The notes beneath the pieces were generated by a model. That model had not been told where the DNA came from. It saw only the letters and a program-made list of their open reading frames with translations, and made no database searches. Of a DNA stretch of 43,212 nt, positions 7,729-33,983 are shown in pieces. The stretch is from Bacteroidota bacterium (GTDB lineage Bacteria > Bacteroidota > Ignavibacteria > Kryptoniales > JAKASW01), in contig JAJYRM010000021.1 in assembly GCA_021794075.1 (NCBI GenBank), positions 1-43,212 of the forward strand, written 5' to 3'. Position numbers and translations under genes: made by a program. The number at the start of each line of letters is the position of its first letter. Within the stretch, counting starts at the first letter, position 1.

Positions 7729-9375
7729 ATGTTTGCACGGCATGGTGCTAACAAGAACTTTAACTCACGAAATGCCCAATGGGTTTCAGAGATGGTGGCG
7801 GGGCTCGCCATTACGGTGGCGTTCTCGTGCGCGGCTTCGGCGCAGAGTCTCAATCGGCAGTCGAACTCATCGGCGGCTATGAGCGATTCGACGACAGTTC
7901 TCTTCGAGGATGTGTACGGGAGGTTCCCAAACGGCGTCATGCCGTCGCTCTCAGTGGCGCATTACGACATCTCATACCAAGGCGGAATTGCCCCGATGAA
8001 CCCCAGTTACACGAACGGCGGGGTCGGTTTTACTTTGGGAAACAGGAAAACGTACGAGCTTACCGGCAACTTTCAGAATTTCGGTCAAACCGGCTCAACA
8101 CCTTCGCAAAGCTACGACCTGGGATTTAACTCGAGGCCGATTGCCGGATGGCAATTCGGGGGAACCGCCTTTCTTCAAAGGAGTCCCGGGATGGCTCTCA
8201 CCGATCAGTACTACCTGGGTTTGACTGTGCTGAACCTCTCCAGCGGAGAAGTCAGTTTCAGCCAGAGCCGCCTCCAGCAGTACTACTACTTCTCCGACCT
8301 TCTCCCGGATGCCGGCCAGACGGTCTTTTCCTTCTCCCCGACATACAGCGATTCCAAATTGAGTTCCGGCAACAACAATACGATCGAAGCTCCCTTTACA
8401 TTCTCCTACGGGCTACCGAGCAGGTTTACCCTTGTGGCAGAAGCAAACTTCAGCCAGTACAAGAACAGCTACCCGTACAAGGATGTCTACACGACACAAA
8501 CGATGAATAATCTGAACGGCGAGTTCACAGCAGGGGCTGGATTGAAAAGAATGTTCGGGAACAGCACACTGGCGAGTTTTAATGCCGACTATTACTCCCT
8601 GGAGAACCAGACTCCACACTTCAACGGGACCACGGGGGCTTACGAGAACGGTGCCAGCCAGAAGCAGACTTTCGCCGTTCTCTCCATCGGGCTGAACAAT
8701 CTCTTCCTCAACACTCCACTTTCGGTTTACGACGTTCGTCGTTCATACTATCTGGGCCACTACCTTCATAAGGATGAGGCAAGCAACAGCCTTACGGTTA
8801 GGTATGCGACACAGGACATTATGATGACGGAAACGCTGATCCAGCCTCTTGTCCCGTTCAATTTCTCACGTTTCGGCGTCGACGATAAGTTCAACTATGG
8901 CATTCTCGGAATGCTGGAGCTGAACGCGGAAGGCGCACTGCTTCAACACTCCAGTCGCTACGGAAGCATCGGACTCACTCTCCACAACCTGAACTTCAAT
9001 GGAGCCGAGCTCAGCGACTTCGATTACTTCTTCGGCATGATCAACCGTCCGGGCGACTACACCCTGTCGGTCGATTTTTCTTCCTCAAACATTGATTACA
9101 CTCCGTCCACTCAAATATCCACTGACGTGCGTTACGGAATCATGAGGGATATGGACGTTTCCCTGAATTACTCATATCAGAAGTTCAACTCTTCCAACTC
9201 TACGTTCGGCCAGTCCGGGAACAGCTGGGGGTTCCAGCTGCGCGGCAACCTCTTCGGCTTTATGCGCGCGCAGGGATCGATAGATTGGGGAAGGACGGAT
9301 TACTCCGTTAACGGGCCGGTTATTACGAGAATAAACCAAGTGCAGTATAACCTCACTATCGAAACCTTCTTTTAG
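7729..9375 (+). CDS. Putative outer-membrane beta-barrel protein of unknown function
   Basis: A 548-residue exported protein. A long n-region (about 22 residues) precedes the hydrophobic stretch VAGLAITVAFSCAASAQ, which gives a signal peptide with likely cleavage after the AQ near residue 39. The mature protein is rich in Gly, Asn, Ser, Tyr and Phe, with alternating hydrophobic residues and repeated short amphipathic strands, and ends in phenylalanine (ETFF). These are hallmarks of a Gram-negative outer-membrane barrel. No plug, TonB box or peptidoglycan-binding domain was seen. CGGAGG lies before the ATG. It is a monocistronic unit with its own promoter candidate and terminator. I do not recognise the specific family. 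Confidence 0.82.
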   Translation: MFARHGANKNFNSRNAQWVSEMVAGLAITVAFSCAASAQSLNRQSNSSAAMSDSTTVLFEDVYGRFPNGVMPSLSVAHYDISYQGGIAPMNPSYTNGGVGFTLGNRKTYELTGNFQNFGQTGSTPSQSYDLGFNSRPIAGWQFGGTAFLQRSPGMALTDQYYLGLTVLNLSSGEVSFSQSRLQQYYYFSDLLPDAGQTVFSFSPTYSDSKLSSGNNNTIEAPFTFSYGLPSRFTLVAEANFSQYKNSYPYKDVYTTQTMNNLNGEFTAGAGLKRMFGNSTLASFNADYYSLENQTPHFNGTTGAYENGASQKQTFAVLSIGLNNLFLNTPLSVYDVRRSYYLGHYLHKDEASNSLTVRYATQDIMMTETLIQPLVPFNFSRFGVDDKFNYGILGMLELNAEGALLQHSSRYGSIGLTLHNLNFNGAELSDFDYFFGMINRPGDYTLSVDFSSSNIDYTPSTQISTDVRYGIMRDMDVSLNYSYQKFNSSNSTFGQSGNSWGFQLRGNLFGFMRAQGSIDWGRTDYSVNGPVITRINQVQYNLTIETFF

Positions 9376-32268: not shown

Positions 32269-32961
32269 TTACGGAGTAGCCGGCAACCGCATTCCCCTTT
32301 CCCGCGCCGGAGGGAACGCTTCGCAAGCTCCATCGCGTCCTCGCTTTCCCTCCACCACCACTATGTGACTGGAGCAGGGTCGGTTCTTCAACTCATGAAC
32401 CATTTTCATATGGAGTCCTTTAAGCAAACTCGTGATTCCCCCATTCCTCGTGAATGACCTGAAATTCCTGTAGTGCTCCGGTCCGGCGGCGTACTCAACG
32501 AGTTGATTCAGAACCCCACAATAGTTTCTCGGCTGCGGAACAAGATAGTCGACGAGTATGATTCTGTCCGCAACGGTAGACGCCGCTCGCAAAAGGAGAT
32601 CCCTGTCTTCCTCCTGTATTTCGTGAACGACATACGACATCGTTATGAAATCGAAGTGGAAATCATTCGTCGCGAGGAACTCGAACGCATCCATCCTTCC
32701 AACCGCCATTTTCTCCGAGGGAACATTCACGAACTTGCGTCGCGCGACTCTAATGTTGCGCTCCGAGGGATCAATTATTACGATCTTACCGCATTTGTCG
32801 AAGAGTTGCGACGCGAGTCGTCCGGTCCCGCAGCCAATGTCAAGGATCGTCGCGCCCTCGGGTAACATCTCCTTCACCTGAGCGAAAACCCTGTCCTGGT
32901 TGGGGGCTATGAGCAAATCATAGAACAGGCCATCGTACCAATGTTTTTTGTCATCCGACAC
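32269..32961 (-). CDS. Class I SAM-dependent methyltransferase
   Basis: A 230-residue protein with a Rossmann methyltransferase core: motif I ILDIGCGTGRLASQL (about residues 39-53), motif II IVIIDPS, and FDFITMSYVVHE for motif IV. The C-terminal tail is basic and proline-rich and probably not part of the fold. The substrate is unknown. The start is GTG at 32961 with GGAGG upstream. It is the last gene of a minus-strand series that includes the arginine decarboxylase and the interrupted thioesterase. Confidence 0.85.
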   Translation of the reverse strand: MSDDKKHWYDGLFYDLLIAPNQDRVFAQVKEMLPEGATILDIGCGTGRLASQLFDKCGKIVIIDPSERNIRVARRKFVNVPSEKMAVGRMDAFEFLATNDFHFDFITMSYVVHEIQEEDRDLLLRAASTVADRIILVDYLVPQPRNYCGVLNQLVEYAAGPEHYRNFRSFTRNGGITSLLKGLHMKMVHELKNRPCSSHIVVVEGKRGRDGACEAFPPARERGMRLPATP

Positions 32962-33024: not shown

Positions 33025-33423
33025 TCATTTTTCACTTCCACTGAAATATTCCATTGCCTTCTTGTCCATCTTTCCCGTACGCAGATCCATCATGACACAA
33101 TCCTGTCCGGCGCTCGCCACGCTTGACTCTCATTTTGGGAATACCGCCCTCAGATGCATGAGTCCATGCTTGACGGACTCGATCCATATGACTCCCTTCA
33201 GCTTGTTTGTCAATGTCAGCTGGGTCCTGTAACGAATTTGCGTCGAGACAACTACCGGATAGAAATCCCTTTCGAGCATTTCACTGACGGGTCTCCGCGT
33301 AGAAAGGAGCTTCGAGCGCAAGTCTTCAAGCCATCTTACGTAAACGATGTTGTTCACGTGACCGGCGACGTCTATATCGTATGTCTTTATTTCAAGTTCC
33401 GATTCGATTCTCTGATCAGTCAC
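33025..33423 (-). pseudogene. 4HBT acyl-CoA thioesterase interrupted by an in-frame TGA
   Basis: The frame begins at GTG 33423 after AGAGGAG and reads TDQRIESELEIKTYDIDVAG, then HVNNIVYVRWLEDLR, the hot-dog thioesterase (YbgC-like) signature with Asp and HxNN. Translation stops at TGA 33132-33130 after 97 residues, too short for the family. In the same frame the sequence continues ESSVASAGQDCVMMDLRTGK and ends at 33025; reading through gives 132 residues, the normal family length, and restores the C-terminal VxxDLxTGK strand. The TGA is therefore a nonsense mutation, a sequencing error or a recoding event. It starts 15 bases after the decarboxylase stop. Confidence 0.78.
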
Positions 33424-33437
33424 ACAAGCACTCCTCT

Positions 33438-33983
33438 CTATGGAAGAAGAATTGCGGCCGCGATCACCGTGGTCCACTGGCCCGTTTTGTCCCCCTCCGC
33501 AGTCTGGGTGATGTTGAAAGTACGGACTATCTTCCCAGACATCTTGAAGACCTGTTCGCGCTCGTTCCAGTCTGTGTTGGGGTCGAACTCGACTCCAAGA
33601 GTCGTGGCGAGCATCTGGGCGGCAAGGTCCTCCGCGTAATCGCCGGCGGTCTTCTCGTTTTCCCCAAATCCATGGTGCTCCGAGAGATAGCCGTACTGCC
33701 CCGAATCCGCGGGAATCGCGGCCCCTATCGATGCAGCTATCAGGCGGTTCGGTTCGTCGGTCGCGTTTCGTGCTATGACCGTGAACGTGACCTGGCCACT
33801 CTGTATTTCCTTCAGACCTTCGTTCAAACTGATTCGCCTGCAGCCCGGCGGGAATATGCTGCTGACCGAAACGAGGTTGCACTTTTCGATACCCGCGTCT
33901 CTCAATGATAACTCGAATGAACTGAGGTAATCCTTGTGCCTTCCAACGCCCTTTGTAAAAAATATTTTCGACGGTACGAACAC
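33438..33983 (-). CDS. Pyruvoyl-dependent arginine decarboxylase
   Basis: A 181-residue proenzyme that self-cleaves to form a pyruvoyl cofactor and decarboxylates arginine to agmatine, the first step of polyamine synthesis. The cleavage site is the Ser-Ser pair in [11 protein letters not shown] (near residues 41-42). The catalytic Glu region [15 protein letters not shown] and the terminal [12 protein letters not shown] follow the family pattern. The start is GTG at 33983 without a clear ribosome site. It sits between two methyltransferase genes, directly ahead of the thioesterase. No agmatinase or spermidine synthase gene is in view. Confidence 0.93.

Follow-up and report, generated by a model that had tools for sequence, protein, structure and literature searches.

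A thioesterase gene in the window (the whole 43,212-nucleotide stretch that was analysed, contig 9 of a draft genome of 4.53 Mb in 240 contigs that is 99.8% complete) is cut by a premature in-frame TGA, and this interruption very probably reflects the ordinary recent inactivation of a dispensable accessory gene, or else an error of assembly, without recoding. The gene would have been intact until very recently; a local change (a genuine nonsense mutation, another small mutation at the site, or an error of the metagenome assembly) would then have placed an in-frame TGA at codon 98. Translation should end at this codon, leaving a 97-residue fragment that lacks the last beta strand and the helix of the hot-dog fold.

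The gene (33025-33423, minus strand) resembles the YbgC/FadM-like acyl-CoA thioesterases. It starts with a GTG at 33423 and its translation runs for 97 residues to the TGA at 33132-33130, continues in the same frame as ESSVASAGQDCVMMDLRTGKMDKKAMEYFSGSEK through 34 sense codons (33129-33028), and reaches its true end at a second TGA (33027-33025). The downstream part is of real homology: five relatives (G012, G010, G007, G008 and G005) align with it gap-free across the TGA and end at about the same C-terminus. The sequence-only reading, that an in-frame TGA cuts a 4HBT gene whose downstream half is intact, is thus confirmed by the translation and by these relatives, although the total of 132 residues that it gave is corrected to a read-through product of 131 residues plus the TGA position. 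The premature TGA is the only such stop in the gene, which has no net frameshift. The 97-residue part matches the Pfam 4HBT_2 profile (PF13279) with 41.5 bits, against a cut-off of 25.5, and an intact relative, whose match covers almost all of the profile, scores 59.4 bits. The match of the intact relative to TIGR00051, the YbgC/FadM family model, is weaker and falls under the curated cut-off; on these profile matches the gene is assigned to the 4HBT_2 hot-dog family, and a YbgC/FadM subfamily is tentative.

A homologue search of 61 genomes identified full-length homologues without a premature stop in five other genomes of the same genus, the five that align across the TGA. G012 is the closest, with 78% identity to the window gene, and the other four are 58-63% identical. 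All five intact orthologues carry a sense codon where the window has its premature TGA, namely GAC (Asp) in G012, G010 and G008, GCG (Ala) in G007 and AAT (Asn) in G005; Cys, Trp or a stop occurs at this position in none of the five. This is the alignment with close relatives that had been proposed as a check. Homologues ending at about 97 residues, which had been named as evidence against an interrupted gene, were not found: the homologues are either full length or else broken, at another place or through a deletion. The "stops inside" recorded for G012 and G008 are their normal C-terminal stops, and a conserved truncated form was rejected on the full length of the intact homologues.

What the truncation would remove can be judged from the G012 protein as modelled with AlphaFold (mean pLDDT 92.7), a hot-dog thioesterase with E. 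coli YbaW (1njk, E 7.6e-10) as its best PDB match. In the secondary structure of this protein, the TGA position falls in a turn of two residues that joins the last two beta strands, 88-97 and 100-113. The equivalent of strand 100-113 is encoded after the TGA, together with the C-terminal helix. This strand carries Gln107, which is invariant in 30 homologues. The five-strand hot-dog fold is accordingly incomplete in the 97-residue product, which lacks an essential part of it; with neither this strand nor the terminal helix, the product is predicted to be non-functional.

The selection acting on the gene bears on the age of the stop. Between the window gene and its G012 orthologue, dN/dS over the entire gene is 0.071, with 0.056 for the part that precedes the TGA and 0.141 for the part that follows it, and the neighbouring genes have values of 0.03-0.09 at a similar dS, near 1.1 to 2. 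Nearly all of the divergence of the gene has thus built up under ordinary constraint. Of 16 polarised protein changes, 10 fall on the window's own branch, a weak and non-significant excess (P = 0.08). Since dN/dS is like that of the neighbours and there is no other stop or net frameshift, the stop is very recent or an assembly error.

The thioesterase gene has been lost repeatedly in the genus. Of the 13 genomes, five have it intact, one has the broken copy described here, two (G011 and G009) have independently broken copies, and the homologue search found no match in the remaining five (G001-G004 and G006). In G011, a TAG replaces an invariant Trp and the 3' part is lost, and in G009 the first 97 or so codons are lost and the last 30 or so remain. 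In addition, the window's own genome contains two further intact 4HBT_2 genes. Inactivation is thus favoured by the intact orthologues within the genus, by the repeated loss and by the two other family members, and the gene is dispensable in this genus.

The G009 remnant deserves separate comment, as its TGA stands at the same codon as that of the window and could suggest an older stop. The remnant starts directly after the end of the arginine decarboxylase gene and reads TGA GAA TCC, compared with TGA GAG TCA in the window (L158, about 8208-8222); the G009 TGA sits at a deletion junction. In a concatenated tree of six neighbouring genes, G009 groups with G012 (91.5% identity, support 100), and the tail sequence agrees, the remnant itself being closer to G012. 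The GAC of G012 also stands in the outgroups G010 and G008, and common descent of the two TGAs is disfavoured because G012 would need to have returned to exactly GAC. An older TGA shared with G009, read through leakily at a tolerant surface turn and reverted to a sense codon in G012, is a highly improbable history, and the TGA in G009 more likely arose by chance at the deletion junction. The syntenic stretch in G009 (G009:C17; L158, 7920-8303 and 3900-4360) carries several internal deletions: a methyltransferase is fused at codon 39 to codon 120 of the decarboxylase, the thioesterase is present as a tail only, and another methyltransferase is without its middle. Such deletions would reflect heavy decay or, alternatively, a faulty assembly.

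How the TGA arose in the window can be narrowed by comparison with the codons of the relatives. A change from GAC to TGA takes three base changes, or the gain of one base and the loss of another nearby, so a single base change in the relatives' codon does not explain the event. The codon two before the TGA is altered as well, encoding Pro here and Gln in all five relatives. As long as indels carry no penalty, a gap-free model scores 9.7 log units lower than one in which a base is gained on one side of the site and a base lost on the other, and the two break even at a rate of about 0.0036 per site for each indel; substitutions and paired one-base indels thus appear to fit the relatives about equally well. 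The earlier statement that no frameshift is needed stands for the net frame; it is the second altered codon that lets such a compensated pair fit about as well as substitutions.

Three origins had been offered for the TGA, namely a recent change, a sequencing error and recoding; the first two survive, and most of what was observed speaks against the third. An assembly or sequencing error, in which the gene is intact in the living genome and the consensus is wrong at this site, is a special case of the preferred explanation and a possible though not the favoured form of it. Ordinary purifying selection on the gene, the origin of the window in a draft of 240 contigs, and the good fit of an indel pair beside short runs of C and A all agree with it, and a pair so placed would somewhat favour a consensus error. 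Against this, loss is frequent at this locus across the genus, and no other interrupted orthologue was found among the window genes that can be compared with relatives (rows flagged in this check, which was read in the true gene frames, are antisense or upstream frames). Near-cognate tRNAs that read through the TGA, in a regulated or a leaky way, would yield some full-length enzyme, and the retained constraint would also agree with occasional read-through of this kind. Both halves of the gene are conserved, the turn at the TGA position accepts D, A and N, and bacterial genes with in-frame stops and low dN/dS have been reported (PMC7918605). However, none of the orthologues with both halves intact keeps the stop, no structured element lies 3' of it, a recent mutation by itself accounts for the low dN/dS, and such stops are mostly short-lived in bacteria (PMC7918605). 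Read-through is for these reasons considered very unlikely.

Insertion of selenocysteine has in its favour only the TGA codon in an otherwise intact frame. The suggested search for selA, selB and selC did not find the machinery: profile searches of this 99.8% complete genome gave no match to SelA, and matches to SelB and SelD under the curated cut-offs only. In open-frame length the SelB matches agree with EF-Tu, IF-2, EF-G and related GTPases and, on this basis, are probably ordinary translation GTPases; the tRNA-Sec matches are also below cut-off, and those examined turned out to be normal tRNAs for Ser, Leu, Gly and Cys. SelB is above cut-off in none of the 13 genomes of the genus. Cys is absent from the turn holding the TGA position in 30 homologues from several phyla, as it is from the position itself in the five close ones. 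The RNA 3' of the TGA, where a structured element had been proposed, folds no better than shuffled sequences (z from +0.39 to +1.10), and an Rfam search of this region returned nothing of note. With the machinery, the Cys homologues and a SECIS-like hairpin all lacking in these searches, selenocysteine was rejected as extremely improbable. A genome-wide reassignment of TGA to sense has only this one codon in its favour and its probability is close to nil: TGA is used more often than any other stop in the window, where it ends 17 of 30 genes, no internal TGA was seen in the other compared window orthologues, and the genome has a tRNA-Trp with the normal CCA anticodon. It was rejected on the use of TGA as a terminator.

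The genes on either side are intact. Upstream lies a pyruvoyl-dependent arginine decarboxylase (33438-33983, minus strand; PF01862, 208.8 bits) that is 94-95% identical in G012, and downstream a class I SAM methyltransferase (32269-32961, minus strand) whose place beside the thioesterase is kept in the genus. Pyruvoyl-dependent arginine decarboxylases are encoded twice in the genome, at 33438-33983 in the window and at C39:13163-13705, and the two are related, with 74% identity. An arginine decarboxylase occurs in all 13 genomes, several with a second copy elsewhere; of the two in this genome, the window copy is accessory, with a patchy presence across the genus, and the thioesterase-linked copy is found, intact or as a remnant, in eight genomes. 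G008 (L005 207-377, G008:C227) shows the opposite of what is seen in the window: its linked decarboxylase is cut down to the first 57 or so codons, and the thioesterase after it is intact. The result is mostly negative, in that one candidate recoding event is removed. It also describes a small accessory cluster (second arginine decarboxylase, thioesterase and methyltransferase) that is lost piecemeal in one uncultured genus by ordinary genome decay.

Three known systems provide a comparison. Like bacterial selenoprotein genes, the window gene has conserved sequence before and after an in-frame TGA, but it differs from them in having no Cys homologues, no Sec machinery that could be found and no hairpin. 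The intact orthologues share fold and family with the YbgC/FadM-type hot-dog thioesterases (PF13279, TIGR00051; E. coli YbaW/FadM, 1njk, and YbgC, 1s5u), whereas the window copy stops at codon 97, without the last strand. Bacterial genes in which an in-frame stop has caused a recent inactivation (PMC7918605) likewise have a single stop of this kind, low dN/dS and short persistence; the stop in the window differs from these in being common to no relative that keeps the gene intact.
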